Positions 25,563-56,840 of a stretch of DNA of 64,000 bases are shown here, piece by piece. Every line of letters starts with the position of its first letter. Position 1 is the first letter of the stretch. A program made the position numbers and the translations under genes. The stretch comes from Pseudomonas sp. PD9R (GTDB lineage: Bacteria; Pseudomonadota; Gammaproteobacteria; Pseudomonadales; Pseudomonadaceae): assembly GCF_019200975.1 (NCBI RefSeq), contig NZ_JAHTMR010000014.1:192-64191 (forward strand), written 5' to 3'. Under the pieces are notes generated by a model. That model ran no database searches. It was not told the origin of the DNA and saw nothing but the letters and a program-made list of their open reading frames with translations.

Positions 25563-28500
25563 ATGAATGCTGAAGACTCCTTGAAACTTGCTCGCCGGTT
25601 TATCGGGTTGCCCCTGGAAAAGCGCCAGATGTTCCTTGCGGCCTTGCACAAGGAAGGCGTTGATTTCGCCCGGTTTCCAATTCCTGCCGGGGTCGAGGCC
25701 GAGGACCGACAGGCGCTGTCTTTCGCCCAGAAGCGCATGTGGTTTCTCTGGCAACTGGACCCGCAAAGCGGTGCTTACAACCTGCCAGGCGCAGTGCGTT
25801 TGACCGGTCGTCTGAACTTGCCCGCATTGGAGCAGGCCTTCGCCAGCCTGGTAGAGCGTCACGAAACCCTGCGCACGGTGTTCCAGCAACAGGCCGATGA
25901 CAGTCTGCGGCAAGTACCGGCCACAGCGCCGCTGGTGATCGAGCAGGTGGATTTCAGCGCACTCTCGACCATGGAGCGCGAAAAGGCAGTCGCACAAACC
26001 GCCGAGCAGCAGTCGGTATTGCCATTCGATCTGGGTGCCGGCCCGCTGCTGCGGGTCACCTTGCTCAAGCTTGCCGAGCAGGAACACGTTCTGCTGCTGA
26101 CCCTGCACCACATCGTTTCCGACGGTTGGTCGATGAACGTGCTGATCGACGAATTCATCCGCTGCTTCGACGCCTTTGATGCTGGCGCGCAACCACAACT
26201 TGCAGTGTTGCCGATCCAGTACAGCGACTATGCCTTGTGGCAGCGCCGCTGGCTGGAAGCCGGCGAGCAGGCGCGCCAGCTCGAATATTGGCAGGCGCAA
26301 CTGGGCGACGAACACCCTGTGCTGGAACTGCCCACGGATCATCCGCGCCCGGCGATGCCGAGCTATCGCGGCACCCGTTACGAATTCGCCGTCGACGCGC
26401 AACTGGCCGAGCAACTGCGGGCCACCGCGCAGAAGCACAACATCACCCTGTTCATGCTGTTGCTCGGTGCCTTCAACGTGCTGCTGCATCGTTACACCGG
26501 GCAAACCGACCTGCGCGTCGGCGTGCCGATTGCCAACCGCAACCGCCCCGAGATCGAAGGCCTGATCGGTTTTTTCGTCAACACCCAGGTACTGCGCACG
26601 CAACTGGACGGCCAGACCCGCGTCGATGAGTTGCTGCGCCGCATCAAGGAAACCGCCCTCGGTGCCCAGGCCCATCAGGACCTGCCGTTCGAGCGCCTGG
26701 TCGAAGCCTTGAAACTGGAGCGCAGCCTCAGTCACACGCCGCTGTTCCAGGTGATGTACAACCACCAGCCGCAGGTTGCGGATATTTCCACCGTCACCAC
26801 AAAGTCCGGCCTGGCGTTGGGCGCAATCGAATGGCAAGGGCGCACCACGCAATTCGACCTGACCCTCGACACGTACGAGAAGGGCGGCAAGTTGCACGCC
26901 GCATTGACTTACGCCAACGACCTGTTCGACGCCGCAACCATAGCGCGTATGGCGCAACACTGGACGCGCCTGCTGCACGGCATGGTCAGCGACTCGCAGC
27001 AGCGGATCAGTGATTTGCCGATGCTGGAACAGGCTGAATACCAGCGCATCGTCCATGACTGGAACCACAGCGATGAATGCTTCGCACAGGATCTGAATGC
27101 TGTTCACTTAAAAACGAACGTTGTACCTGTGGCGAGGGAGCTTGCTCCCGCTGGACTGCGAAGCAGTCCCTATCTTTTTAGGGACAAGACGGGGGCCGCT
27201 TCGCGCCCCAGCGGTAGCAAGCTCCCTCGCCACGGGTTTCACGACACGCCCTATCGCCTAGCTGAACTGCATTTCGCACAGGATCTGTGCATCCATCAAT
27301 TGATTGCCCAACAAGTCGCTGTGGCACCGGATGCGCTGGCGGTGACGTTCGCCACCACGCAGTTGACCTACAGCGAACTCGACACTCAAGCCAACCGTCT
27401 CGCACACAAGCTGATCGAACTCGGCGTAGGCCCGGAAATCCGGGTTGGCGTGGCGATGCAGCGTTCCGACAAATTGCTGGTGGCGTTGCTGGCGGTGTTC
27501 AAGGCCGGGGGCGCCTACGTGCCGCTGGACCCGGATTACCCGGCGGAACGAGTGGCCTACATGCTCGAAGACAGCCGCTCGCGGGTGCTGCTGACCGAGC
27601 AATCAGTCGCCGCGACCTTGACCGTGTCAGAGGACACGCAAGTGCTGCTGATGGACAGCATCTTTCTGGCTGATTACCCGGACAGCGCTCCGGTCACCCT
27701 CGTCACGCCGGATAACCTGGCCTACGTGATCTACACCTCCGGCTCCACCGGCAAACCCAAAGGCGTGGCCATCGCCCACCGCAACGTGCTGGCGCTGATC
27801 GACTGGTCGCACTCGGTCTACCGTCGCGAAGACATCCAAGGAGTGCTGGCCTCGACTTCAGTGTGCTTCGACCTGTCGGTGTGGGAGCTGTTCGTGACCC
27901 TGGCCAACGGTGGCTCGGTGATCATTGCCCGCAACGCCCTGGAGCTGCCGAACCTGCCGGCCCGGGATCAGGTGCGCTTGATCAACACCGTGCCGTCGGC
28001 GATCAATGCGCTGCAACGCGACGGGCAGATCCCGCCCAGTGTGCGCATCATCAACCTCGCCGGGGAGCCACTCAAGCAAAGCCTGGTGGACGCGCTATAC
28101 CAGCAGCCGACCATCGAACACGTCTACGATCTGTATGGCCCGTCGGAAGACACCACCTATTCGACCTGGACCCGCCGCACGGCCGGCGGCAGCGCCAACA
28201 TCGGCCGTCCGCTCAAGCACACCGCCAGCTATTTGCTGGACGCCGACCTGCAACCGGTGCCGCAAGGCGTGTCTGCCGAGCTGTACCTCAGCGGCGCCGG
28301 CATCACTCGCGGTTACCTCGCGCGACCGAGCCTGACTGCCGAAAAATACGTGCCAAACCCGTTCGCCAGCAATGGCGAACGCCTCTACCGCACCGGCGAC
28401 CTGACCCGTTATCAGGTCGACGGCACGCTGCAATATGTCGGCCGCATCGACCATCAGGTCAAGGTGCGCGGTTTCCGTATCGAGCTGGGAGAAATCGAGG

Positions 28501-31500
28501 CGCGGCTGTTGCAACAGGACACGGTGCGCGAACTGGCGGTACTCGCTCAGGACGGTGCCAGTGGTCAGCAACTGGTGGCCTATATCGTGCCAACCGAGCC
28601 GGCGTTGCTGGGTGATGAAGGCGCGCAAACAACCCTGCGTGAAACCCTCAAGGCTGCACTGCGTCAGCATCTGCCGGACTATATGGTCCCGGCGTTCCTG
28701 CTGTTCCTCGAACAACTGCCGCTGACCCCCAACGGCAAGCTCGACCGCAAGGCTTTGCCGGCGGTGGATGGCTCGCAACAAAAGCGCGAACACGTCGCGC
28801 CGCGCAGTGCCCTGGAAAAGTCTCTCGCAGCGATCTGGCAGGACGTGCTGGCCATCGACAACGTCGGCCTGGACGACAACTTCTTCGAGCTGGGCGGCGA
28901 CTCCATTGTGTCGATGCAAGTGGTCAGTCGCGCTCGTCAGGCGGGGATCGTGTTGAGCCCCAAGGATTTGTTCCAGCACCAGACCATTCGCAGCCTGGCT
29001 CAAGCAGCCCGCTGCGGTGAGCAATCGCTGATCGACCAAGGCCCGGCGACTGGCGCGGTGCCTTTGGCGCCGGTACAACAGTGGTTCTTTGAACAAGCCA
29101 TCCCGCAGCGTCAGCACTGGAACCAGTCGCTGTTGCTGGTGCCGCGCGAGGCGTTGAATGTCGAAGCGCTGGAGCGTGCGTTGGCACAACTGCTGACCCA
29201 CCACGACAGCTTGCGTCTGCGTTACCAGCCAAGCGAAAGCGGCTGGCAACAAGCCTATGCCGCGCCGACCAGCGACTCGGTGCTGTGGCAGCGTCAGGCG
29301 CAATCGATCGAACAACTCACTGCGTTGTGCGATGAAGCCCAGCGTAGCCTCGACTTGCACAACGGCCCATTGCTGCGCGCGCTGTTGGTCGCCATGGCCG
29401 ACGGCAGCGAGCGTCTGCTGCTGGTCATCCATCACCTCGTAGTGGACGGGGTTTCCTGGCGTGTGCTGCTGGAAGATCTTCAACAGTTCTACAGCAGCGG
29501 CGTGGTGCCGGCGAAGACCAGCAGCTATCAGAGCTGGGCCGCACGATTGCAGGATCATCTGCCGGCGTTTGAACAAAGCCTTGGCCACTGGCGAACCCAA
29601 CTGCAAGACGCTCCGGTCGACCTGCCATGCGACCGTCCGAACGGCGCGCTGGAAAATCGTTTCGAGCACAAACTCCAACTCAAACTCGACGCCGAACAAA
29701 CCCGAAAACTGCTGCAACAGGCACCCGCTGCTTATCGCACTCAAGTCAACGACTTGCTGCTGACCGCGCTGGCCCGTGCCGTTTGCCGCTGGAGCGGGCA
29801 GGGCAGTACGTTGGTTCAGCTCGAAGGTCATGGCCGCGAAGACCTGTTCGATGACGTTGATTTGACCCGCAGCGTCGGTTGGTTCACCAGCCTGTTCCCG
29901 ATCAACCTGACGCCTGCGACCGCTGTCGGCGCCTCGATCAAAAGCATCAAGGAGCAATTGCGCAGCGTTCCGGCAAAAGGCCTGGGCTACGGCGCACTGC
30001 GTTATCTCGGCACCCCGGAAATTCGCACCGAACTGGCGGCGTTGCCGCAACCGCGTATCACCTTCAATTACCTTGGGCAGTTCGACCGCCAGTTCGACGA
30101 CGGTGCACTTTTTACACCGTCCACCGAAGGCAATGGTCTGGCACAGGACCCGACGGCACCGCTGGGTAACTGGCTGGTTGTAGAAGGTCAGGTTTACGGC
30201 GGCGAACTGTCCCTGAGCTGGGGCTTCAGCCGCGAGATGTTCGACGCGGCGACCATCCAGCGTCTGGCCGATGATTACGCTGTGGAACTTATTGGGCTGA
30301 TCGAACATTGCTGCACCCTTGAATCACCCCAGGCAACACCGTCGGACTTCCCGTTGGCGCGGATCAGTCAGGTTCAACTTGATGCACTGCCGGTCGCCGT
30401 ATCGACCCTCGAAGATGTGTATCCATTGTCGCCGATGCAGCAGGGCATGTTGTTCCACACACTTTACGAGCCCGAAGTCGGCGCCTACATCAGCCAGTTG
30501 CGCCTGGACATTGGCGGGCTGGACACCGAACGATTCACCCGGTCCTGGCAAGCGGCGGTCGAGCGTCACGACATTCTGCGCAGCAGCTTCCATTGGCAGG
30601 GACTCGACATTGCGCATCAGGCGATTGCCCACCAAGTGGCACTGCCGCTTGAGGTGCTTGAAGCCAGCGACACCGACACACTGGCCGATGCCGAGCGAGC
30701 GCAAGGATTTGTCCTCGGCTGCGCGCCGCTGTTCCGATTGAAACTGGTACGGACCGGCACCGACGCCTGGCACCTGATCTACACCAGCCATCACATTCTG
30801 ATGGACGGCTGGAGCAACGCGCAGTTGCTCGCCGAAGTGATCCAGCATTACGCCGCCGGGCAGTCGCTGCCTGCACCGTCGGGGCAATACCGCGATTACC
30901 TGGGCTGGTTGCAGCAGCAATCGGCAGTTGCCGGCGAGCAGTTCTGGAAGGCCGCTTTGGCACCGCTGGAAGCCCCTACATTGCTGGCCGAAGCCCTGCG
31001 CCCGCCGGTCGGCACCGAGGGCAGCGAAGAATATCGGGTAGCCCTCGACAGCCACGCGACCCAACGTCTGGCCGAGTTCGCCCGCCAACAAAAAGTCACC
31101 CTCAACACCGTGCTGCAAGCAGCCTGGAGCCTGTTGCTGCACCGCTACACCGGTCAGGATTGCGTGGTGTTCGGCGCGACCGTGGCGGGTCGTTCGGCAC
31201 CGCTGCCGGGGATCGAAGAACAGCTCGGATTGTTCATCAACACCCTGCCGCTGGTGTGCGCGATGAAACCGGACCAGACCGTCAGCCAATGGCTCGGCGA
31301 ACTGCAAGGCCTGAACCTGGCCATGCGCGAGTTCGAGCACGTGCCGCTGTATGACATTCAGGGTTGGGCGGGGCAGCAGGGTTCGGCGCTGTTCGACAGC
31401 CTGCTGGTGTTCGAAAACTTCCCTGTGGCCGAGGCGCTGAAACAGGGCGCGCCGGCCGGGTTGGCATTCGGCAACCTGCATAACCACGAGCGCACCCACT

Positions 31501-34500
31501 ATCCGCTGACCCTGGGCATTGAACTGGGTGCAGCGTTGAGTCTGGACTTCAGCTACGACGCGGCGCGCTTCAGTGCCGCGCAGATCGCTACGTTGTCGGC
31601 CAACTTGCAGCATCTGCTGATGCAACTGGTATCGATGCCGGATGCGGCATTGGGCGCGCTGGAATTGCTCGATGCCGAGGATAAAAGCGCGGTACTCGCG
31701 ATCAGCCAACCGTCGACAGTGCCGTTGGTTTCGACCTTGCTGGTGCACGAACAAATCGCAGCTCAGGCGGCGGCCACTCCGGACGCGTTGGCATTGCAAG
31801 TCGACGGCCAGTCCCTGAGCTACAGCCAACTGAATGCTCAAGCCAACCGCTTGGCCCATTACCTGATCGACAACGGTGCCGGCCCCGGCACGCGCGTGGG
31901 TCTTGCGCTGCGTCGCGGCCCGCAACTGATCGTCAGCCTGCTGGCGGTGCTGAAAAGCGGTGCAGCCTATGTGCCGCTGGACCCGAAATACCCGGCTGAA
32001 CGCCTGGCCTACATGATCGACGACAGTCGCCTCGACGTGCTGCTGTGTGAATCCGGCCTGCTGGAAGACATGCCATTGTCAGCGGACTTGCCGCGCCTGC
32101 GCCTCGATGACAATGCCGCTTACCCGGATACCAATCCGGCCCCTGTAGGAGCGAAGCTTGCTCGCGATGGCGGTATACCTGTCGCCGAAAATCTCGCCTA
32201 CATCATCTACACCTCAGGCTCCACCGGCCAACCCAAAGGCGTAGCCATCAGCCACGCCGCACTGCGCGAGTTCTGCCAGACCGCCGCCGACTATTCGATG
32301 CTCTCTGCTAAAGACCGCGTGTTGCAGTTCGCGACTTTCAGCTTCGACGGCTTCGTCGAGCAATGCTTCCCGGCGCTGTGCATCGGCGCGGCGTTGATCA
32401 TGCGCGGCGATGACCTGTGGGACGCTGGCCGCCTGGCCGCAGAAATCGTCGATCAAGGCGTGACCGTCGCCGACTTGCCGGCCGCCTACTGGTTCCTGCT
32501 GGCCCGTGAATCTGCCAGCGGTGTGGTGCGCAGCCTCGGCGACTTGCGCCAGGTTCACGTCGGCGGCGAAGCCATGTCAGTGGAGGGGCTGCGCCTTTGG
32601 CATCAGGCCGGCTTGAGCCACGTTCGGTTACTCAACACCTACGGGCCGACCGAAGCGACCGTGGTGTCCAGCGTGCATGAGTGCCAGTTGGCCGATGCCA
32701 GCGACGCGTTCGGTGTCCCGATTGGTCGGGCCATCCCAGGCCGCGCGTTGTATGTGCTGGATTCGGCGGGTCAATTGTTGCCGTCCGACGGCGTCGGCGA
32801 GTTGTGCATCGGCGCGCCGGCCTGTCTGGCGCAACGCTATTTCGACCGTCCGGCGCTGACTGCCGAGCGTTTCCTGCCGGACCCGTTCGCCCGTGAGCCG
32901 GGGGCGCGGCTGTACCGCAGCGGCGACTTGGCGCGCTACAACGCCAACGGCGATCTGGAATACGTCGGACGTATCGACCATCAAGTGAAAATTCGCGGTT
33001 TCCGTATCGAGATGGGCGAAATCGAAGCCTGCCTGCAAGCTCGCGATGACGTACGCGAAGCGGCGGTGATTGCTCAGGACGGCACGCAATTGGTGGCATA
33101 CATCGTGGCCAGCGATGCGTTGGTTTCCGAGGCAGAGTATCTGGACGGACTCAAAGACGTCCTGCGTCAGTCGCTGCCGGAATACATGGTGCCAAGCCAT
33201 CTGGTCCTGCTGGCCAAATTGCCGCTCAACAACAACGGCAAACTTGACCGAAAAGCCTTGCCCCGTGCCGAGGCCGGCGACGCACAACGCGACTTCGTGG
33301 CCCCGACTCAAGGGCTGGAAACGCAGCTTGCGCAGATCTGGCAAGAAGTGTTGCAGGTCGACCGCGTGGGTCGCGACGACAACTTCTTCGAACTGGGCGG
33401 CCACTCGTTGCTGGTGCTGCAAGTGATCTCCCGAGTGCGTCAGCAACTGAACATCGAGTTGTCCGTGAGCAGCCTGTTTTCTGCGGTGAACCTCGCGCAA
33501 TTCGCCGAACGCGCAGCACTGGCGAACGTCAGCAGCCAACCGCTGCTGCAACGTGCAGCAGCCGATCAGCCACGGGTTCTGTCTTACGCCCAGCAGCGCC
33601 AGTGGATTCTCTGGCAACTGGACCCACAAAGCGCTGCCTACAACATTCCAGCCGCGCTGCGCCTCAAGGGGCCATTGAACCGTGAAGCGCTGCGCACAGC
33701 CTTCACGCAATTGCAGGCCCGCCACGAGACCCTGCGCACAACCTTCGAACAGAACGGTCAGCAGGCGCGCCCACCGGTTCACGCACAACTGCCGTTGCAG
33801 CTCAGTGAGCGCCCAGTCGACGAGGTATCGATCAACGACGCTGTGGCCGAAGAAATCGCCCGACCGTTCGACCTGCGCAGCGGCCCGTTGTGGCGCGTTC
33901 TGCTGCTGCAAGTCAGCGCCGAGGACCATGTGCTGGTGCTCACCGTGCACCACATCGCCGCGGATGGCTGGTCGATGCAAGTCATGGTCAAAGAATTCAG
34001 CGCGCTGTACCAAGCCGCCGTTGCAGGCCAAATCGCCAACCTGAAAACGCTGCCGGTGGCCTACAGCGACTACGCCCGCTGGCAACGCGACTGGCTGGAG
34101 GCCGGCGAGGGCGCGCGGCAACTGGCATGGTGGCGCGAGCAACTGGATGGCAGCCAGGCACCGCTGGAATTGCCGAGCGAACTGACTCGTCCGGCCCGCC
34201 GCAGTCAGCGTGGGGCGACCCTGGCGCTGAACGTGGATCGCCACTTGCTGGCCGGTTTGCGTGAGCGCGCCCAGCAGCAGCAAGTGACCTTGTTCATGTT
34301 GCTGCTGGCGAGCTTCCAGACGTTGCTGCATCGCCAGAGTGGTCAGCCGAGCATCAGCGTCGGCGTGCCAAGTGCTGGCCGTTCGCGCCTGGAAACCGAA
34401 GGCCTGATCGGCTTCTTCATCAACACGCAGGTGCTGCTCGCCGAGATCGACGGGCAGCAGTCCTTCAGCACCCTGTTGCAACAGGTCAAGCAGGTGGCGT

Positions 34501-36764
34501 TGGGCGCACAGGCCCATCAGGACCTGCCGTTCGAGCAACTGGTTGACGCCTTGCAACCCGACCGCAGCCTCAATCACAGCCCGTTGTTCCAGGTGCTCTA
34601 CAACCACCAGCAGCAATTGGGCGCCAGCGTCGAACGCGCTGTCGCCGAGCTGCAGGTCGAGCGCCTGCACTGGCAGCAACACACCGCACAATTCGATCTG
34701 GTGCTCGATACCCAGGAACAGGGCGATGAACTGGACGCCAGCCTGAGCTACGCCACCGATCTGTACGACGAAGCGTCGATGCAGCGCTTCGCCGAGCAGT
34801 GGCTGAACCTGCTGCGCGCCGTGGTCGAAGATCCGCAACAACGCGTCGCTGAACTGCCGTTGCTGCAAGCGCCGCAGGCCGCCGGGTTGATCCAGCACTG
34901 GAATCCGACATTCGAAGCTCAACTGCAGTCGCCGACCCTGCATCAGTTGTTTGAAGCCCAAGCCGCGCAACAACCGGACGCTATCGCGCTGGTCTACGAA
35001 GGCGAGCAACTGAGCTACGCCGCACTCAATGCCCAGGCCAACCGGTTGGCGCGCAAACTGCGTGAGCAAGGCGTCGGCCCGGAGGTGAAAGTCGGCATCG
35101 CCACCGAGCGAGCCATACCGCTGGTGGTCGGTTTGCTGGCGATTCTCAAGGCCGGTGGCGCCTATGTGCCGCTGGACCCGCAATACCCCGCCGAGCGCTT
35201 GAGCTACATGATCGAAGACAGCGGCATCGCGCTGCTGTTGACTCAGTCACATTTGATCGACGGCTTGCCGTCCCGCGACGGCGTGCAGGTGTTGGACCTG
35301 TCGTCACTGCAACTGGACGCCTACAGCGCCGACAACCTGCCAGCGCTGGCGAGCCCGGAAAATCTCGCCTATGTGATCTACACCTCCGGCTCCACCGGTC
35401 GGCCAAAGGGCGCATTGCTCAGCCATGGCAACGTCGGACGCTTGCTGACGGCCACCGCAAAAGAATTCAACTTCGGCCCGGCGGATGTCTGGACCCTGTT
35501 CCATTCCTACGCCTTCGATTTCTCGGTGTGGGAGCTGTTCGGTTCGCTGTGTACGGGCGGGCGTCTGGTGATCGTGCCGTATTACATCAGTCGCGAGCCG
35601 CAAGAATTCCACCGCTTGCTCTGCGACGAAGGCGTGACGGTGTTGAACCAGACGCCGACTGCTTTCCGCCAGCTGTTGCCGATTGCCTGCGCCAGCCCAC
35701 GCAGCATGGCGCTGCGTCAGGTGGTTTTCGGTGGCGAAGCACTGGAAGTGGTCAGTTTGCGTCCATGGTTCGAACGCTTCGGCGACCAGCAACCGACGCT
35801 GGTCAACATGTACGGCATCACCGAAACCACGGTGCACGTGACCTACCGCGCGATCCGTCTGGCCGACCTCGACGGCAAGGCGCAGAGCCCCATCGGCCTG
35901 CCGATCCGCGACCTGCGCTGGTACTTGCTCGACAGCCAGTTGCAACCGGTGCCGGTGGGTGTGGCGGGCGAGCTGTACATCGCAGGTGCCGGTCTGGCGC
36001 GTGGTTACCACGGGCGTTGCGGCCTGACCGCCGAGCGTTTCGTGCCGAGCCCGTTCGATACCTCGCAGCGCCTGTATCGCAGCGGCGACCTGGCGCGCCA
36101 GCGCGTCGACGGCAGCATCGATTACCTCGGTCGTATCGACCAGCAAGTGAAGGTCCGTGGGTTCCGTATCGAGCTGGGTGAAATCGAAGCCGCGTTGCTT
36201 GCCCAACCGGGCGTGCGCCATGCGGTGCTGAGCGTGCATGCGGGCGACGGCGGGCCGCAGCTTTGCGCCTACGTTGTCGCCGAGCACCCCCCACACGACC
36301 CGATTGCATGGCGCGATCACCTGCGCGCCGCGCTCAAGGTCGACCTGCCGGATTACATGGTGCCGAATCACTGGCTGCTGCTTGATGCCTTGCCGCTGAC
36401 CAGCAACGGCAAGCTCGACCGCAAGGCCTTGCCACTGCCGGATGCCGAGGACTGGCAATGCCCGTTCGAAGCCCCCGAGGGCGATCTCGAACAGCAACTG
36501 GCAGCCATTTGGGCCAGCGTGTTGGGCGTGGCGCAGATCGGCCGGCGCGACAACTTCTTTGAACTGGGCGGGCACTCGCTGCTCGCCGCCCAGGCCAGCG
36601 CCCGTGTGGAGCTGGAACTGGGGATCGAGCTGCCGCTGCGTGCGCTGTTCGAATCCACCGACCTTCAGGCTTACGCCGCCATGGCCGGGCAACACGCCCC
36701 GACTGACAACGATGCACGCCTGGATGCGCTTGAGTCGCTTCTCGACGAGATGGAGATCAACTGA
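25563..36764 (+). CDS. pvdI: pyoverdine non-ribosomal peptide synthetase, modules 1-3 (C-A-T-E, C-A-T, C-A-T)
   Basis: The 3733-residue enzyme adds three residues to the pyoverdine chain. Module 1: C (HHIVSDG at 182), A (YTSGSTG near 724), T (Ser1114 in GGDS), E (HHLVVDG at 1290). Module 2: C (HHILMDG at 1743), A (about 2213), T (Ser2615, GGHS). Module 3: C (2796), A (3270), T (Ser3672). Eye-read A-domain codes: DLWNNALTYK (Ala-like), DGEDHGTVVK (Lys), DFWNVGMVHK (Thr); with the E domain this suggests D-Ala-Lys-Thr. The starting C domain implies it accepts a chain from another synthetase (PvdL, not here). It overlaps the next gene by one base (TGATG). Odd: REP DNA inserted in frame in modules 1 and 2. 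The symbol follows naming habit and is not certain. Confidence 0.93.
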   Translation: MNAEDSLKLARRFIGLPLEKRQMFLAALHKEGVDFARFPIPAGVEAEDRQALSFAQKRMWFLWQLDPQSGAYNLPGAVRLTGRLNLPALEQAFASLVERHETLRTVFQQQADDSLRQVPATAPLVIEQVDFSALSTMEREKAVAQTAEQQSVLPFDLGAGPLLRVTLLKLAEQEHVLLLTLHHIVSDGWSMNVLIDEFIRCFDAFDAGAQPQLAVLPIQYSDYALWQRRWLEAGEQARQLEYWQAQLGDEHPVLELPTDHPRPAMPSYRGTRYEFAVDAQLAEQLRATAQKHNITLFMLLLGAFNVLLHRYTGQTDLRVGVPIANRNRPEIEGLIGFFVNTQVLRTQLDGQTRVDELLRRIKETALGAQAHQDLPFERLVEALKLERSLSHTPLFQVMYNHQPQVADISTVTTKSGLALGAIEWQGRTTQFDLTLDTYEKGGKLHAALTYANDLFDAATIARMAQHWTRLLHGMVSDSQQRISDLPMLEQAEYQRIVHDWNHSDECFAQDLNAVHLKTNVVPVARELAPAGLRSSPYLFRDKTGAASRPSGSKLPRHGFHDTPYRLAELHFAQDLCIHQLIAQQVAVAPDALAVTFATTQLTYSELDTQANRLAHKLIELGVGPEIRVGVAMQRSDKLLVALLAVFKAGGAYVPLDPDYPAERVAYMLEDSRSRVLLTEQSVAATLTVSEDTQVLLMDSIFLADYPDSAPVTLVTPDNLAYVIYTSGSTGKPKGVAIAHRNVLALIDWSHSVYRREDIQGVLASTSVCFDLSVWELFVTLANGGSVIIARNALELPNLPARDQVRLINTVPSAINALQRDGQIPPSVRIINLAGEPLKQSLVDALYQQPTIEHVYDLYGPSEDTTYSTWTRRTAGGSANIGRPLKHTASYLLDADLQPVPQGVSAELYLSGAGITRGYLARPSLTAEKYVPNPFASNGERLYRTGDLTRYQVDGTLQYVGRIDHQVKVRGFRIELGEIEARLLQQDTVRELAVLAQDGASGQQLVAYIVPTEPALLGDEGAQTTLRETLKAALRQHLPDYMVPAFLLFLEQLPLTPNGKLDRKALPAVDGSQQKREHVAPRSALEKSLAAIWQDVLAIDNVGLDDNFFELGGDSIVSMQVVSRARQAGIVLSPKDLFQHQTIRSLAQAARCGEQSLIDQGPATGAVPLAPVQQWFFEQAIPQRQHWNQSLLLVPREALNVEALERALAQLLTHHDSLRLRYQPSESGWQQAYAAPTSDSVLWQRQAQSIEQLTALCDEAQRSLDLHNGPLLRALLVAMADGSERLLLVIHHLVVDGVSWRVLLEDLQQFYSSGVVPAKTSSYQSWAARLQDHLPAFEQSLGHWRTQLQDAPVDLPCDRPNGALENRFEHKLQLKLDAEQTRKLLQQAPAAYRTQVNDLLLTALARAVCRWSGQGSTLVQLEGHGREDLFDDVDLTRSVGWFTSLFPINLTPATAVGASIKSIKEQLRSVPAKGLGYGALRYLGTPEIRTELAALPQPRITFNYLGQFDRQFDDGALFTPSTEGNGLAQDPTAPLGNWLVVEGQVYGGELSLSWGFSREMFDAATIQRLADDYAVELIGLIEHCCTLESPQATPSDFPLARISQVQLDALPVAVSTLEDVYPLSPMQQGMLFHTLYEPEVGAYISQLRLDIGGLDTERFTRSWQAAVERHDILRSSFHWQGLDIAHQAIAHQVALPLEVLEASDTDTLADAERAQGFVLGCAPLFRLKLVRTGTDAWHLIYTSHHILMDGWSNAQLLAEVIQHYAAGQSLPAPSGQYRDYLGWLQQQSAVAGEQFWKAALAPLEAPTLLAEALRPPVGTEGSEEYRVALDSHATQRLAEFARQQKVTLNTVLQAAWSLLLHRYTGQDCVVFGATVAGRSAPLPGIEEQLGLFINTLPLVCAMKPDQTVSQWLGELQGLNLAMREFEHVPLYDIQGWAGQQGSALFDSLLVFENFPVAEALKQGAPAGLAFGNLHNHERTHYPLTLGIELGAALSLDFSYDAARFSAAQIATLSANLQHLLMQLVSMPDAALGALELLDAEDKSAVLAISQPSTVPLVSTLLVHEQIAAQAAATPDALALQVDGQSLSYSQLNAQANRLAHYLIDNGAGPGTRVGLALRRGPQLIVSLLAVLKSGAAYVPLDPKYPAERLAYMIDDSRLDVLLCESGLLEDMPLSADLPRLRLDDNAAYPDTNPAPVGAKLARDGGIPVAENLAYIIYTSGSTGQPKGVAISHAALREFCQTAADYSMLSAKDRVLQFATFSFDGFVEQCFPALCIGAALIMRGDDLWDAGRLAAEIVDQGVTVADLPAAYWFLLARESASGVVRSLGDLRQVHVGGEAMSVEGLRLWHQAGLSHVRLLNTYGPTEATVVSSVHECQLADASDAFGVPIGRAIPGRALYVLDSAGQLLPSDGVGELCIGAPACLAQRYFDRPALTAERFLPDPFAREPGARLYRSGDLARYNANGDLEYVGRIDHQVKIRGFRIEMGEIEACLQARDDVREAAVIAQDGTQLVAYIVASDALVSEAEYLDGLKDVLRQSLPEYMVPSHLVLLAKLPLNNNGKLDRKALPRAEAGDAQRDFVAPTQGLETQLAQIWQEVLQVDRVGRDDNFFELGGHSLLVLQVISRVRQQLNIELSVSSLFSAVNLAQFAERAALANVSSQPLLQRAAADQPRVLSYAQQRQWILWQLDPQSAAYNIPAALRLKGPLNREALRTAFTQLQARHETLRTTFEQNGQQARPPVHAQLPLQLSERPVDEVSINDAVAEEIARPFDLRSGPLWRVLLLQVSAEDHVLVLTVHHIAADGWSMQVMVKEFSALYQAAVAGQIANLKTLPVAYSDYARWQRDWLEAGEGARQLAWWREQLDGSQAPLELPSELTRPARRSQRGATLALNVDRHLLAGLRERAQQQQVTLFMLLLASFQTLLHRQSGQPSISVGVPSAGRSRLETEGLIGFFINTQVLLAEIDGQQSFSTLLQQVKQVALGAQAHQDLPFEQLVDALQPDRSLNHSPLFQVLYNHQQQLGASVERAVAELQVERLHWQQHTAQFDLVLDTQEQGDELDASLSYATDLYDEASMQRFAEQWLNLLRAVVEDPQQRVAELPLLQAPQAAGLIQHWNPTFEAQLQSPTLHQLFEAQAAQQPDAIALVYEGEQLSYAALNAQANRLARKLREQGVGPEVKVGIATERAIPLVVGLLAILKAGGAYVPLDPQYPAERLSYMIEDSGIALLLTQSHLIDGLPSRDGVQVLDLSSLQLDAYSADNLPALASPENLAYVIYTSGSTGRPKGALLSHGNVGRLLTATAKEFNFGPADVWTLFHSYAFDFSVWELFGSLCTGGRLVIVPYYISREPQEFHRLLCDEGVTVLNQTPTAFRQLLPIACASPRSMALRQVVFGGEALEVVSLRPWFERFGDQQPTLVNMYGITETTVHVTYRAIRLADLDGKAQSPIGLPIRDLRWYLLDSQLQPVPVGVAGELYIAGAGLARGYHGRCGLTAERFVPSPFDTSQRLYRSGDLARQRVDGSIDYLGRIDQQVKVRGFRIELGEIEAALLAQPGVRHAVLSVHAGDGGPQLCAYVVAEHPPHDPIAWRDHLRAALKVDLPDYMVPNHWLLLDALPLTSNGKLDRKALPLPDAEDWQCPFEAPEGDLEQQLAAIWASVLGVAQIGRRDNFFELGGHSLLAAQASARVELELGIELPLRALFESTDLQAYAAMAGQHAPTDNDARLDALESLLDEMEIN
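27081..27287. mobile_element. in-frame REP-pair insertion in the NRPS gene, flanked by a 15-bp direct repeat
   Basis: TTCGCACAGGATCTG occurs at 27081-27095 and again at 27273-27287, exactly 192 bases (64 codons) apart. Between them lies a full type-C REP pair (27129-27233; GTGGCGAGGGAGCTTGCTCCC...GAGCTTGC...CTCGCCAC), very similar to that at 52537-52629. The reading frame stays open, giving about 64 extra residues (507-570) between the C and A domains of module 1. Confidence 0.88.
32142..32171. repeat. half REP (type B) inside the module 2 adenylation domain
   Basis: CCTGTAGGAGCGAAGCTTGC followed by TCGCGATGGC matches one arm of the intergenic type-B REPs. It is in frame (PVGAKLARDGG) and lies just before the A3 motif YTSGSTG, where family members have a variable loop. 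Confidence 0.78.
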
Positions 36765-49937: not shown

Positions 49938-52403
49938 TTAGAAATCGTATTTCGCCGTGAGCTGCAGGTTGCGCGGCTCGCCGTCGAAGGTGGTGCCGAA
50001 GTTGCCCAGGCCCGTCAGGTAATGCTTGTCGAAGACGTTGTTGGCATTGACGGTGAAGCTCAGGTGCTCGTCGAACTGATAACGGCTCATCAGGTCCACG
50101 AGGGTGTAGCCGCCTTGCTTGAGCGAGGTAGCGCCTTCGGTAGGGCTGGTGCTCTGGCCGTAGAAAGCGCTCTGCCAGCTGATGCCGCCGCCGACGGTAA
50201 CCTGGTCCAGTACGCCGGGCAGGCGGTAGGTGGTGAACGTACGCACAACGTGTTCCGGTTTGGTGGTGGCCAGCGGGAAACCGTAGATGCGTTGCTCGTC
50301 CTTGTCACGGGTACGGGCGTAGGTGTAGCCGGCGGATACGTTCCAGCCTTCGGCCAGTGCACCGGCCAGTTCCAGTTCCACGCCCTTGGTGGTTGCACCG
50401 GAGGTTGATTTGTAGATGTCCTGCAGGGTCGTGGTGTCGGTGGCGACGTACTGGGCGACGTTGTCCTGTTCGATGCGGAAGAAGGCCAGGCTGGCGTTTA
50501 GTTTGCCTTCGAAGTAGGCCGCTTTCAGGCCGGTCTCGTAGCTGTTGCCTTCAACCGGGTCCAGGGTCTTGCCGCTGGCGTCCCGGTAGATTTGTGGCTG
50601 GTAGATGTTGGTGTAGCTGGCGTAGACCGAGTAGGTGTCGTCGAGGTCATAGACCACACCGGCGTAAGGCGTGACGACGCCGTGTTCCTTGTAGCTGGCG
50701 TGGCTGTCGGTCAGGCCGGCATCCGGGTTGTAGGTGTAATCTTCGTTGTACTTGAAGGTACTCAGGCGGCCGCCGAGGATGAACGACAAGTCGTCGGTCG
50801 GGCGCAGGCGCGTGGCCAGGTAGATACCGTTCTGGCTCTGGATGCGTTCGTACTTGCCGTTTTTCGGAAACTCCGGTTTGGCCAGTTCGCCATTCCAGTC
50901 ATAGATGCTGCCAGGCACCAGGCCATCGGCGTTGGGGGCGCCATAGTTTGCACCGGTCTGACGCGAGTGGGAGGTCATGAAACCTGCCACCAGTTCATGC
51001 TCGCGACCACCCAGGCTGAATGGACCGGTCACGTTCACGTCAGCCGTGTTCTGCACGCGATGACCTTCCCAGCGACCCCAGTAAAGGAACATCCCGTCAC
51101 CGGTGGCACGATCCGGGCTGCCGCCGCTGGCCGAGGCCAGTTGGGTATCGTGATCGGTGGTTTTCTGGTCGAGGCTGAGCTTGAGTTTCCAGTCGTTGGC
51201 CAGTGCCTGTTCCAGGGACGCGAAGTAGGTGGTGCTGTCGAAATCACGACGGCTCCAGTCGGCACCCGGGTTGAAACTGCGTGGGAAGTCGGTACGGCCA
51301 CCGTCGGCGAAGTACACGGTGTTACCGGTCCAGGAGCTGCCGCGCGGGGTGGCGCTGGACTTGTCGATACCGAAGGTCAGCAGGGTATCGTCGGTCAGGT
51401 CGGCTTCGAGGATGCCGTAGAACAGGTCTTTCTTCTGGCTGTAGTGGTCGATGTACGAATCTTTGTCCTGGTAGGCGGTCACGAAACGGCCACGCACGTT
51501 GCCCGAATCGGTCAGCGAACCGGAAATGTCGCCTTCGGTGCGGTAGTTGTCCCAGGAGCCGGCGGTGGCGCTGACCGATGCCTTGAATTCCTTGGTCGGC
51601 TTTTTGCGGACCAGGTTGACGGTGGCGGACGGATCGCCCGCACCGGTCATCAGGCCGGTCGAGCCTTTGATGACTTCAACGCGGTCGAGGCTGGCGGCGT
51701 CGTCGCTGTTGTTCGGGTTTTCACCGTACACACCGTCGTAGGGAATGTTGACGCCGTCGTACTGAAAGTTAGTGATGGCAAAGCCACGGGCGGAGAACTC
51801 GGTACGGTCACTGTCGTACTTCTGCGTCGAGACACCGGGGGTATTGCGCAGCACATCACCCACGCTCTTTGAGCCCTGATCGTCCATCTGCTGACGGGTA
51901 ATCACGGTGACGGTTTGCGGGGTTTCACGAATGGTCAGCGGCAGCTTGGTGGCGGTGGTGGTCGCGCCAGTGGTGTAGGAGCCGGTGTCTTCGGTGACCA
52001 GGCCCAGGGCCTGGCCAGAAATGGTGGTCGCGCCCAGTTGCAGGCTAGAGGAACCGCCGGACATCAGGGTTACGCTGTTGCCGTTGATCTGGAACGAAAT
52101 GCCGGTGCCTTTGAGCATCTCGGTCAGGGCCGCCGAAGGCTCCAGCGAACCGGACACCGCGCGAGACTTGATACCGGCCACCTGATCCGGGCTGTAGAGA
52201 ATTTGCAGGTTGGTCTGCATGCCCAGTTCGGTCAAGGCGCTGGACAGCGGTTGTACTGCAATACTTACTTTTACAGGTGCAGCATTGGCCATCGAGCTCC
52301 CCAGCAAGGTGGCGGTCAGCAGAACGCTGGTCAACAGGGTTCGATGCAGGGTCGGGCGCTGTACGGCCAACGCGAGAGGTGTGCGGCGTGGAAGAGATCG
52401 CAT
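49938..52403 (-). CDS. fpvA: TonB-dependent ferripyoverdine receptor FpvA
   Basis: The 821-residue precursor has a long signal peptide (to about ANAAP, residue 43), an STN signalling domain (about 45-125: VSIAVQPLSSALTELGMQTNLQILYSPDQV), a TonB-box/plug region (LTIRETPQTVTVITRQQMDDQG, then SVGDVLRNTPGVSTQKYDSDRTEFSARGF) and a 22-strand barrel ending LQLTAKYDF. The STN domain means it can signal through an anti-sigma factor (FpvR type) when ferripyoverdine binds. It works in the outer membrane to import the iron complex. AGGTAAG precedes the ATG. A Fur-like site and iron-starvation box lie upstream. A receptor for another hydroxamate/catecholate siderophore is possible, but the context favours FpvA. 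Confidence 0.93.
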   Translation of the reverse strand: MRSLPRRTPLALAVQRPTLHRTLLTSVLLTATLLGSSMANAAPVKVSIAVQPLSSALTELGMQTNLQILYSPDQVAGIKSRAVSGSLEPSAALTEMLKGTGISFQINGNSVTLMSGGSSSLQLGATTISGQALGLVTEDTGSYTTGATTTATKLPLTIRETPQTVTVITRQQMDDQGSKSVGDVLRNTPGVSTQKYDSDRTEFSARGFAITNFQYDGVNIPYDGVYGENPNNSDDAASLDRVEVIKGSTGLMTGAGDPSATVNLVRKKPTKEFKASVSATAGSWDNYRTEGDISGSLTDSGNVRGRFVTAYQDKDSYIDHYSQKKDLFYGILEADLTDDTLLTFGIDKSSATPRGSSWTGNTVYFADGGRTDFPRSFNPGADWSRRDFDSTTYFASLEQALANDWKLKLSLDQKTTDHDTQLASASGGSPDRATGDGMFLYWGRWEGHRVQNTADVNVTGPFSLGGREHELVAGFMTSHSRQTGANYGAPNADGLVPGSIYDWNGELAKPEFPKNGKYERIQSQNGIYLATRLRPTDDLSFILGGRLSTFKYNEDYTYNPDAGLTDSHASYKEHGVVTPYAGVVYDLDDTYSVYASYTNIYQPQIYRDASGKTLDPVEGNSYETGLKAAYFEGKLNASLAFFRIEQDNVAQYVATDTTTLQDIYKSTSGATTKGVELELAGALAEGWNVSAGYTYARTRDKDEQRIYGFPLATTKPEHVVRTFTTYRLPGVLDQVTVGGGISWQSAFYGQSTSPTEGATSLKQGGYTLVDLMSRYQFDEHLSFTVNANNVFDKHYLTGLGNFGTTFDGEPRNLQLTAKYDF

Positions 52404-52536: not shown

Positions 52537-52629
52537 GTGGCGAGGGAGCTTGCTCCCGTTGGACTGCGCAGCAGTCCTGGTTTTTTTGGGGCCGCTTCGC
52601 GACCCAGCGGGAGCAAGCTCCCTCGCCAC
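52537..52629. repeat. REP pair (type C)
   Basis: GTGGCGAGGGAGCTTGCTCCC and inverted GGGAGCAAGCTCCCTCGCCAC flank two small internal hairpins (GGACTGCGCAGCAGTCC; GGGGCCGCTTCGCGACCC). It is nearly the same element as the one in the NRPS gene. Confidence 0.9.
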
Positions 52630-52658
52630 AAAGTTGTGTTCAGCTCGGTCCTAAGCGG

Positions 52659-54308
52659 TCAGGCAGGGGTCAGTTCGGTGACGACCCGGCCGCTTTCCAT
52701 GCGCACCAACTGGTCGGCGACATCGAAATAGCGGTCGTCGTGAGAGATCACGATGATGGTCTTGCCCAGGCGCTTCAGGTCCGGCAGCAGCTCGGTGTAG
52801 AAGATCCGGCGGAAGGTCGGGTCCTGGTCCGCCGCCCACTCGTCGAACACCAGCACCGGCCGTTCTTCCAGCCAGGCATTGATCAGCGCCAGGCGTTTGC
52901 GCTGGCCGGTGGAGAGGTCGGTGGTGGTGAAATTGCCGTCCTTGACGCTGACTTTGTGCGCGATTTCCAGGCGCTCCAGGTATTTGTTGGCGTCCTCCGG
53001 GATCTGCATGTCGCCCTGGACCACGTCATCGAACAGGTAGTAATCGGCGAAAACCGTGGTGAACAATTGGCGATAGTCGTCGCGGTTCTGCGCATCAATG
53101 GCCTCGCCGTTGACGCGGATCTCACCTTGCTGCGGTGTGTACAGGCCCAGTAGCAATTTGATCAGCGTGGTCTTGCCGCAGCCGTTCTCGCCGACGATGA
53201 AGGTGATGTCGCCCTGCTTGATCGACAGGTTGACCGGCCCCAGCTGGAATGGTGCGGCACCGTCAACGGACGGGAAGGCATAGCGCACGTCCGCCAATTG
53301 CAGTTCGTGCACGGCTTGTTTGACGTAGCCCTGATCGTTGAGCAGCAGGTGCGGCTCAGGGGTGGAAAACTGCTCGGACAATTCGGCGATGCGGCGGAAC
53401 GCGATCTGCGCGCGGCTGACGATGGGCAGGGTGCTGATCAAGTGTTCCAGCGGGCCTTTCATGTACAGCAGCACCAGCACGAAACCGCTCATCACGGTTT
53501 TGTCGGCACTCGGCCAGAAAGTTTGCAGCGCCAGGGCCAGGACGATGACCACGAAAAACAGCATCGAGCCGAAAGTCTTGGCGATGACGAACGTGTTGAT
53601 CGAGCGCACCTGAGTGTTGCAGATGAACTCGGCGGTGGCCTTGATGCCCGCGACGAACATGCGCTGGCGACGTGGGCGGTGAATGCGCAGTTCCTTGGCG
53701 CCTTCGGCGATTGCGTTGTAGTGCTTTTGCAATTCGTCTTCGGCGTCACGGGCGGCCATGAAACCCTGTACGCCTTTGCTCTGGGCGTAAGCCTGGATGG
53801 CGGTGCCGATCAGGATCGCGGCGACCATGATCAGGAACATCGGCCACGACAGCATCGCCAGGTAGCCCATGCAGCCCAAGGTCACGGTGACGGATATCGC
53901 CAGTGGCGCGAAGGCGAAGGCGAAGTCGCTGATGGTGTCGACGTCATGGGTCAGCACCGGAATCAGGCGGTGGCTGCGATAACGCTCGATCTGTTCGATC
54001 GGTGCTGACAGGACCTGTTCACCCAGTTGTTTACGCAGCTTGGCGATGATGTGCTGGCCGACGTAGTTGGTGCCGATGTCGGAGCAGATCGAACTGAGCA
54101 ATGCCAACAGGCACAGGCCGGCGAACAGTGCGACCACGCCTTGGGTCAGGCCGGTTTCCGAGTGCAGCGCGTTGTTGATGGTCGCCAGCAGCACCGTGAC
54201 ACTCAGGCCGCCGACCATGCCCAGGAAAATCGACGCGGCGACAATGAGTCGAAAGGGTTTCAACAGGGCGAACAATTCGCCAATGGCGCCACGGGTTGGC
54301 TGGGTCAT
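52659..54308 (-). CDS. pvdE: pyoverdine precursor export ABC transporter PvdE
   Basis: The 549-residue half-transporter belongs to the cyclic peptide export family: six predicted membrane helices in the first 320 residues and an ATPase domain with Walker A IVGENGCGKTT, the family's altered signature LSTGQRKRLALINAWL, and Walker B VLVFDEWAADQDP. PvdE moves acylated ferribactin from cytoplasm to periplasm, where PvdM, N, O and P finish it. AAGGA 10 bases upstream supports the ATG at 54308; a TTG at 54317 is possible. It has its own perfect iron-starvation promoter, so it need not be read with the pvdMNO genes upstream. Confidence 0.94.
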   Translation of the reverse strand: MTQPTRGAIGELFALLKPFRLIVAASIFLGMVGGLSVTVLLATINNALHSETGLTQGVVALFAGLCLLALLSSICSDIGTNYVGQHIIAKLRKQLGEQVLSAPIEQIERYRSHRLIPVLTHDVDTISDFAFAFAPLAISVTVTLGCMGYLAMLSWPMFLIMVAAILIGTAIQAYAQSKGVQGFMAARDAEDELQKHYNAIAEGAKELRIHRPRRQRMFVAGIKATAEFICNTQVRSINTFVIAKTFGSMLFFVVIVLALALQTFWPSADKTVMSGFVLVLLYMKGPLEHLISTLPIVSRAQIAFRRIAELSEQFSTPEPHLLLNDQGYVKQAVHELQLADVRYAFPSVDGAAPFQLGPVNLSIKQGDITFIVGENGCGKTTLIKLLLGLYTPQQGEIRVNGEAIDAQNRDDYRQLFTTVFADYYLFDDVVQGDMQIPEDANKYLERLEIAHKVSVKDGNFTTTDLSTGQRKRLALINAWLEERPVLVFDEWAADQDPTFRRIFYTELLPDLKRLGKTIIVISHDDRYFDVADQLVRMESGRVVTELTPA

Positions 54309-54349
54309 GGAGGACAATTCCTTGGGTCGTAAGGCAGATACCCAGTAGA

Positions 54350-55516: not shown

Positions 55517-56809
55517 TCAGGCCGTTTTGTTCAGCTGCGCCATGAAACGGTCGATTTCGTTTTCGCTGTTGAGCAAGCCGGGGGCGATGCGGATCACCGG
55601 GCCGACGTCGCGTTCCACCGAGTCGCAGACCACGCGGTTGTGCATCAGTTGGCTGGCGACCTTTTCGCAGTCCTTGTCCTTGATCCGGAAGAAGGTGAAT
55701 CCGGCGGACAGTTGCGGGCTTTGCGGGGTCACCAGTTCGATTTGTGGCTGTTCCAGCAAACGATTCTTGGCATAGGTGTTGAGGGCGTGGATACGCGCCT
55801 GAACATCGGCCTTGCCCAGGTCCAGGTGCAATTTGAACGCTTCGTCCGCCGCCCAGCGATGCTCGAAACTGTGATAGCCACCGGGGGTCATGATGGTCGA
55901 GAAATCAGTGGATTCGCTGAAGGTCGGAATGATCGGCGTGACGTCTTTGAGCTCACTCGAACGGGCACAAATGATCCCGGTGCCACGAGGACCGAACATC
56001 CATTTGTGGGTGCCAGCGATGAAAAAGTCGCAATGCATGTCGGGAAACTCGAAGTCTTCGACGCCGAAACCGTGCACGCCATCGACTACATAAAGGATGC
56101 GGTCCTTGTCCTCACGATTGCGGTTTTGCTCTTCTACGAGTTTGCCGATTTCGCCAATCGGCAGTTTCACGCCGCTGCCCGAATGCACCCAGGTCATGCC
56201 CAGGACACGGGTCTCGGGACGGATGCCACTGGCGATCGAACCCAGCACTTCGTCCACGGAAATATCGCGGCTGTTTTCGAATAATTTGAGTTTGCGCACC
56301 TGGGTGGCCTGGCGTTGCTGTCGATACTCCAGGGTGTAATGGGTGGAGTAATGCTCGTGTTCGCTGACCAGAATTTCCTGATCCGGGCGCACATGAATGC
56401 CGCCATAAATCATCGCCAGGCCTTCGGTGGTGCTGCCGGTGAGGGCGATCTGTTCCGGCCTGGCGTTGAGGTAGCGACCGGCCCAGACACGCACGTTCTG
56501 CTCGCGTTTCTCGGTTTCCTGCAGGTCCCAGTCCATGGCCCGGCCGGGGTTGCGGTCGATAGTGGCGCGGTGCATCTCGATGGCATTGCGCACCGGCGCC
56601 GGGTGCGAGGTCACCAGAAAGTTGGCGAAGTGCAGGTAATCCGGATCCTGATTGAACAGCTGCTTTAGCTGCGCCCACTTACCCTTGGGCAGGGATTGCG
56701 GCTGCTGTTGCAGATTGCCGGCCATCGCCGGCAGTTTCACGGCGGCAGTCAGGGGCAGGCCGGCGGCGAGAATACCGGCCTGCTTGAGGAATGAGCGACG
56801 GTTGGTCAT
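55517..56809 (-). CDS. pvdN: pyoverdine maturation protein PvdN (PLP-dependent, Tat-exported)
   Basis: The 430-residue precursor begins with a twin-arginine signal (TNRRSFLKQAGILAAGLPLTAA) and is a class V aminotransferase-fold protein with the PLP lysine at K269 (GTHKWMFGPRGTG) and the cofactor Asp/His in VVDGVHGFG. PvdN converts the glutamate side chain of ferribactin to succinamide in the periplasm. The ATG at 56809 is chosen; a TTG at 56830 is possible. It lies 31 bases after pvdM in the same direction. Confidence 0.93.
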   Translation of the reverse strand: MTNRRSFLKQAGILAAGLPLTAAVKLPAMAGNLQQQPQSLPKGKWAQLKQLFNQDPDYLHFANFLVTSHPAPVRNAIEMHRATIDRNPGRAMDWDLQETEKREQNVRVWAGRYLNARPEQIALTGSTTEGLAMIYGGIHVRPDQEILVSEHEHYSTHYTLEYRQQRQATQVRKLKLFENSRDISVDEVLGSIASGIRPETRVLGMTWVHSGSGVKLPIGEIGKLVEEQNRNREDKDRILYVVDGVHGFGVEDFEFPDMHCDFFIAGTHKWMFGPRGTGIICARSSELKDVTPIIPTFSESTDFSTIMTPGGYHSFEHRWAADEAFKLHLDLGKADVQARIHALNTYAKNRLLEQPQIELVTPQSPQLSAGFTFFRIKDKDCEKVASQLMHNRVVCDSVERDVGPVIRIAPGLLNSENEIDRFMAQLNKTA

Positions 56810-56840
56810 GAGCTTGATTCGCTTATGCAAAAAATAGGGA

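Follow-up and report, generated by a model that had tools for sequence, protein, structure and literature searches.

Module 1 of a nonribosomal peptide synthetase (NRPS) gene in the analyzed DNA contains, in frame, a pair of inverted REP sequences between two copies of a short direct repeat. The question raised by this locus is what kind of mobile DNA entered the gene, which enzyme moved it and how the gene remained open. An earlier note on the window (the whole analyzed stretch of 64,000 nucleotides) took the insert for a snapshot of REP transposition. Our analysis suggests a different reading: the insert is very probably a non-autonomous IS4-family MITE with a REPIN core that owes its movement to an IS4-type transposase and not to a REP-associated transposase (RAYT).

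Structure of the insert

An exact 15-bp direct repeat, TTCGCACAGGATCTG, was found at 27081-27095 and 27273-27287. Its copies start 192 bp apart and the reading frame is kept, in agreement with the earlier note. The features of the insert are as follows.

27082..27095, no strand: left duplicated target, 14 bp, within the 15-bp repeat from 27081; single copy in genomes G005, G049, G058, G002 and G046
27096..27273, + strand: whole mobile element, 178 bp (IS4-type TIR, spacer, REPIN, spacer, TIR)
27096..27112, + strand: left terminal inverted repeat (TIR) AATGCTGTTCACTTAAA, one mismatch to the IS4-type end AATGCTGTTCASTTAAG
27129..27233, + strand: REPIN, an inverted REP pair with loop, core of the element (sequence, genome search, RNA folding)
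27129..27149, + strand: left REP, GTGG-tagged hairpin GTGGCGAGGGAGCTTGCTCCC (sequence; many matches in the same genome)
27213..27233, - strand: right REP, inverted, one base different from the left REP (sequence)
27257..27273, - strand: right TIR, reverse complement AATGCAGTTCAGCTAGG, three mismatches to AATGCTGTTCASTTAAG
27274..27287, no strand: right duplicated target, 14 bp, within the 15-bp repeat from 27273

The 178-bp element begins with AATGCTGTTCACTTAAA and ends with CCTAGCTGAACTGCATT, and a TIR-pair pattern matched it at exactly 27096-27273. The terminal T of the element (GCATT) doubles as the opening T of the 15-bp repeat, so that 14 bp (27082-27095 and 27274-27287) rather than 15 bp were probably duplicated. 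Both 17-bp ends match Pseudomonas IS4-type ends (one mismatch on the left, three on the right); with its three mismatches the right TIR of this copy may be dead.

The complete REP pair reported earlier between the repeat copies was recovered, with inverted arms of 52 nt that are 83% complementary; the fold of the 207-nt stretch as RNA has an energy of -109.9 kcal/mol (z -9.8). Two inverted REPs, each with a GTRG tag and a palindrome, thus form a REPIN core. The REPIN accounts for only 105 of the 178 bases and the remainder consists of two transposon-end arms, by which the mobile unit reaches 33 bp and 40 bp past the REPs.

Host gene and locus

27096-27273 lies within an open reading frame, 25563-36764, that is uninterrupted through the insert. 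The features of the locus are as follows.

25563..36764, + strand: NRPS gene, 3733 amino acids; the C-A linker of its module 1 carries the element in frame (open ORF, Pfam, PDB alignments)
49938-52403: TonB-dependent siderophore receptor, curated cut-off exceeded
52537..52630, + strand: bare REPIN lacking IS4-type ends, with REPs of the element's type; for comparison only (sequence, genome search)
52659-54317: cyclic-peptide exporter, curated cut-off exceeded
55517-56830: PvdN, curated cut-off exceeded

The inserted length of 178 + 14 = 192 bp corresponds to 64 codons, residues 512-575. The gene is still open because 192 is divisible by three and one frame through the element is free of stops. 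The insert was placed in the C-A linker from the end of the condensation domain by Pfam (residues 47-496) and from the starts of the PDB alignments for the adenylation domain (residues 563-591), and the earlier claim of about 64 residues added between these domains is thereby upheld. Module 1 retains all core motifs searched (C3, A3, A7, A8, A10 and T). AlphaFold modelling of the C-A region with six modules of the window gave a mean pLDDT of 55.9, too low for a claim about the fold; in this low-confidence model the insert has a pLDDT of 25-29 and is nearly all coil. The C-A linker is probably able to absorb 64 extra residues, and we infer that the synthetase is still functional despite the insert. 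The exporter beside the NRPS gene is presumably PvdE and the siderophore receptor FpvA, and the neighbors of the NRPS gene are consistent with a pyoverdine locus.

In the proposed mechanism, the whole TIR-REPIN-TIR unit would be mobilized by a DDE transposase of the IS4 type acting in trans. The unit would insert among the codons for the C-A linker in the pyoverdine NRPS gene with duplication of about 14 bp of target, and after insertion the gene would stay open and gain 64 residues.

The insertion site in related genomes

The flanks of the insert were searched in 95 genomes including that of the source strain, and 59 of these gave a match. Among the matches listed, four relatives (G005, G049, G058 and G002) align to each flank separately, and the two aligned segments share a single 15-bp copy in register. 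The aligned site is contiguous, present once and free of the insert in these four and in G046, as predicted for an insertion with a duplicated target; all five empty-site relatives belong to species other than that of the source strain. In a 398-genome genus sample, with the best two candidates per genome scored, no other genome matched the element over its full length at E <= 1e-30. Exact flank matches of at least 9 bp were rare in controls with mispaired flanks (5/1522 and 5/2179); given these controls and the single insert-free site in five relatives, a chance origin of the repeat is very unlikely.

The same results bear on the possibility that the structure arose by misassembly or by recombination between repeats. 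The genome is a 41-contig draft with numerous REPs, which lends this explanation some ground, but an exact duplication, a site present once in relatives and an uninterrupted frame of 3733 amino acids are unexpected for a chimeric join, and we consider it extremely improbable.

REPINs, RAYT genes and copies in the same genome

The search of the genome for a RAYT that the earlier note had proposed was rewarding: four Y1_Tnp genes are present, none of them on the contig of the window, C7. One of them, C23:204222-204503, has an inverted REP pair of the window REP type on either side and is a cognate RAYT candidate for the REPIN. The likeness that the note saw to the intergenic pair at 52537-52630 holds for the REP type and does not extend to the arms, which that bare REPIN lacks.

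A unit moved by a RAYT would be expected to end at the REPs and to lack a target duplication; target duplication is not known for the IS200/IS605 relatives of RAYTs. Transposition of the REPIN alone by a RAYT, with the 15-bp repeat as its target duplication, would draw on the complete REPIN and on the Y1 transposase gene that has REPINs of this type on both sides. The unit found here is nevertheless one of 178 bp with IS4-type ends that extend beyond the REPs and a duplication of 14-15 bp, its sister copies also have such ends outside the REPIN, and the bare REPIN of the window has no such arms. From the arms and the sister copies, a RAYT as direct cause was rejected and is highly unlikely. 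The RAYT route is available for bare REPINs but leaves the arms and the duplication unexplained. The reading as a snapshot of REP transposition is therefore given up in favor of an IS4-family MITE: the IS4-type TIRs, the duplication and the near-full-length copies at other genomic positions point to a DDE transposase rather than a RAYT.

These copies were identified with a query of 192 bases (27096-27287), and the best 40 of 60 candidates were scored. Near-full-length copies among the scored candidates lie at C19:27721 (86%), C33:378567 (82%), C40:147881 (83%) and C13:65161 (81%), and many further matches in the same search cover the REP only. The arms outside the REPIN are common to the window element and these four copies, and the REPIN loop also occurs in the C19 and C33 copies. 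With 178 bp, no transposase of its own and several copies in the genome, the element has the characteristics of a MITE.

Scans for the end motif revealed eleven TIR pairs in this genome. The window REP type is present in five of them (the window element and the four near-full-length copies); the C15 pair has its REPIN reduced to a single hairpin; three pairs (C12:941760, C33:34289 and C13:35918) contain another REP type, GTAGGAGCGAGC; and two are very short, 60 and 42 bp, with a REP remnant in the 60-bp one. Duplications of 11 bp or more, with no or one mismatch, flank 6/11 pairs. Solitary IS4-type ends beside a REP or a broken REP were also observed (C40:118360-118376, C9:21165-21181, C3:51679 and C40:135089); these are probably decayed, one-ended remnants of TIR-REPIN elements.

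The very short pairs, together with one of 57 bp in genome G272, are what would favor a history in two steps, in which the NRPS gene first received an empty IS4-type MITE and a REPIN moved into that MITE afterwards. Against this, the window, C19 and C33 copies have the spacers and the REPIN loop in common, which makes the composite older than the window insertion. Two of the three short pairs hold REP remnants and look like collapsed composites, and neither MITE nor REPIN is present at the site in the five aligned relatives; among the matches listed in the 94 other genomes, none has an empty MITE at the NRPS site. Such a history is very improbable, and insertion of the ready-made composite is preferred.

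Putative IS4-type partner elements

PF13006 (Nterm_IS4) has no match in the genome of the source strain but occurs in 36 of the 398 genus genomes. The missing partner lowers the case for present activity, while descent of the copies needs no partner. Movement by an IS4-type transposase is inferred for an element whose own genome now shows none. The only DDE_Tnp_1 gene of this genome was considered as partner and rejected, as it encodes an IS1182-family transposase (over the NCBI cut-off) and no such ends lie nearby.

Thirty loci (L106-L135) were fetched from the PF13006 search. The end AATGCYGWTCASTTAAG occurs within two mismatches at least once in all 30 loci and on both sides in 23 of them. 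Seventeen full-length IS copies of 1418-1427 bp were recovered, with exact target duplications of 9-14 bp in 14 and a YREK motif in 15. The IS4 subgroup is described, in the part of the source consulted, with ends -AATR--------WTW----, a less strictly conserved first terminal base and repeats of 10-13 bp (PMC2266710), and by sequence the fetched Pseudomonas elements match this subgroup. By eye, the full-length copies (L106-L129) also appear to have inserted into hairpins that resemble intrinsic terminators.

TIR-pair elements in other genomes

Genome contigs were searched with a content-blind pattern that requires two IS4-type ends separated by 115-145 bp. The search yielded at least 117 loci and at least 118 elements, 115 of them distinct with flanks; many come from one genome or one ancestral insertion, so that the events are not independent. 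Judged by record titles, the hosts are mostly Pseudomonas; Stutzerimonas, Collimonas, Herbaspirillum, Massilia, Chitinibacter and Serratia also occur, as do MAGs labelled Janthinobacterium, Gammaproteobacteria and Elusimicrobia.

Under a strict rule (tag and perfect hairpin in both arms), 63 of the 118 listed elements contain a REP pair (52 GTRG, 11 CGTC) against 0/1180 shuffles. With one mismatch allowed, pairs are present in 90/118 against 12/1180 shuffles: 65 GTRG outward, 13 GTRG inward, 11 CGTC outward and one CGTC inward; the remainder comprises 13 elements with single arms and 15 with none. Analysis of the first 81 elements (80 of the 117 loci) gave 41 strict and 64 relaxed pairs, with the CGTC pairs in Collimonas and Herbaspirillum. 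Ten of the 81 have no tagged hairpins; six of these (L158, L160, L167, L170, L176 and L197) contain CCCCTCTCCC palindromes and the other four are L151, L173, L209 and L211. For 48/81, the tagged hairpin is also present in the fetched flanking DNA, away from any element.

Inward-facing REPs, with tags toward the middle, were observed in L157, L164, L172, L192, L196, L201 and L219 (Pseudomonas guariconensis), L179 and L185 (P. capeferrum) and L147 (Stutzerimonas azotifigens), and outward pairs elsewhere. Insertions or replacements of about 13-19 bp in one REP hairpin of a pair recur in more than one species. At least three kinds can be told apart by the sequence they contain (CGCCTAG, TCGGATCGCCGCACCG or CGGGCGGCGTTCCGACG); they were seen in L161, L152, L143, L178, L230, L251, the C33:34289-34455 element of the source strain, G052, G030, G204 and G167; two G204 copies have nearly identical ones.

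Among 249 genus genomes, the source strain included, the pattern was found in 20 genomes with 38 elements, and a reversed-pattern control gave none among the matches listed. A gap of 5-35 bp gave two genomes, both elements having a REP remnant and one being the 57-bp element of G272; a gap of 200-230 bp gave one genome, where the ends look like a plain IS deletion. Within the three gap ranges tried (5-35, 115-145 and 200-230 bp), and with a pattern to which decayed ends are invisible, REP-cored elements are thus much more numerous than ordinary deletion MITEs.

Target sites and reading frames

Exact target duplications of 9-15 bp flank 60 of 110 distinct listed elements with 60-bp flanks, compared with the 5/2179 mispaired controls. 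Analysis of the 60 rebuilt empty sites revealed a stem of at least 7 bp centered near the duplication in 33; the same stem was found at 83/11000 random positions and at 107/6577 positions that lie in neither an ORF of 150 codons nor an element. Many rebuilt sites resemble intrinsic terminators, and by eye seven of the first 40 have GGGCAAGCCC-type cores as in REPs. The targets of TIR-pair elements are thus often hairpins, and hairpin targeting seems to be a property of the IS4-type transposase.

The window target differs in being coding, with a stem of 6 that is off center. As a terminator mimic (GCACAG-GAT-CTGTGC) it is only weak, since a stem of at least 6 occurs at 205/7467 NRPS codon positions and its center is 3 bp off. 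Its duplication of 14-15 bp is slightly above the published 10-13 bp and was counted as a target duplication. The weak off-center hairpin and the slightly long duplication count against the MITE reading, as do the three mismatches of the right TIR, the absence of PF13006 from the same genome and the copies without good duplication (50/110 listed elements with no exact duplication of at least 9 bp, and 5/11 pairs of the source strain).

Of 129 elements (118 listed and 11 of the source strain), only the window copy lies in a frame that continues without a stop for 80 codons in both directions. None of the other 128 is read through by a gene, in a test to which gene-breaking copies are invisible. 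Open frames through the elements themselves number 15/774 (12/708 for listed elements, 3/66 for those of the source strain). The window copy is an outlier and was plausibly retained because its frame stayed open by chance.

Comparison with known systems

No description of REPINs or REPs inside IS4-type MITEs was found in searches of the open-access PMC literature. The closest relatives by their ends are elements of the IS4 subgroup (De Palmenaer 2008, PMC2266710), which have, in the part of the source consulted, the same terminal pattern, target repeats near 10-13 bp and autonomous members with Nterm_IS4 and YREK. The window element differs in its 178 bp, its lack of a transposase and its REPIN core, and the word MITE does not occur in the main text of that paper.

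By its core, the element resembles REPINs and GTAG REPs with their RAYTs (Bertels and Rainey 2011, PMC3116915; Nunvar 2013, PMC3686654), which in the consulted parts of these papers are likewise inverted GTRG-tagged hairpins with a RAYT flanked by the same REP type in the genome. Unlike in those systems, the REPIN here lies inside IS4-type ends with a duplication, and dispersal of the unit need not use a RAYT. REPIN spread has hitherto been explained by RAYTs; units with IS4-type ends would add a second, testable route and would explain the arrival of a REPIN with a target duplication.

Among repeats described in Pseudomonas, family R6 of P. fluorescens (177 bp, 34-bp inverted repeats, 50 copies in Pf0-1; Silby 2009, PMC2718517, in part) is almost identical in length to the window element, and its inverted ends are likewise long. 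Pf0-1 is reported, in the consulted part of PMC3390384, to be without a RAYT. R6 might be an IS4-ended MITE with a REPIN core. MITEPsy1 and MITEPsy2 of P. syringae are further Pseudomonas MITEs thought to move in trans; as far as the consulted part of PMC3189936 describes them, their ends differ from those of the window element in being IS5-like (ISPsy2) and Tn3-like (ISPsy30), respectively, and MITEPsy1, with 100 bp and a 4-nt duplication, would shift a frame that the window element keeps.

IS elements that target REPs are already known (PMC1525189 and PMC11708052, in the parts consulted), and CGTC repeats are reported without a dedicated transposase in the consulted part of PMC3733652. The recurrence of these so far enzyme-less repeats as cores of IS4-ended units offers a possible route for their spread. 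It is an evenly balanced proposition that widespread two-enzyme elements exist, in which IS4-type ends repeatedly captured unrelated palindromic repeats (GTAG REPINs, CGTC repeats) that then spread as units by a DDE transposase. Insertion favors hairpins such as terminators and REPs; with a hairpin as cargo, every new copy would in turn provide a further target, and the palindromic core may be a working part and not a passenger.

With respect to the host gene, the nearest parallels are intragenic GTAG and CGTC REPs and the RPEs of Rickettsia (Di Nocera 2013, PMC3733652), which, in the consulted part of that paper, are also palindromic repeats in frame, possibly tolerated in linkers. Those are REPs or RPEs, whereas the insert described here is bounded by transposon ends and flanked by a duplicated target. 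It also shows that a modular synthetase gene can stay open after gaining 64 foreign residues between two domains.
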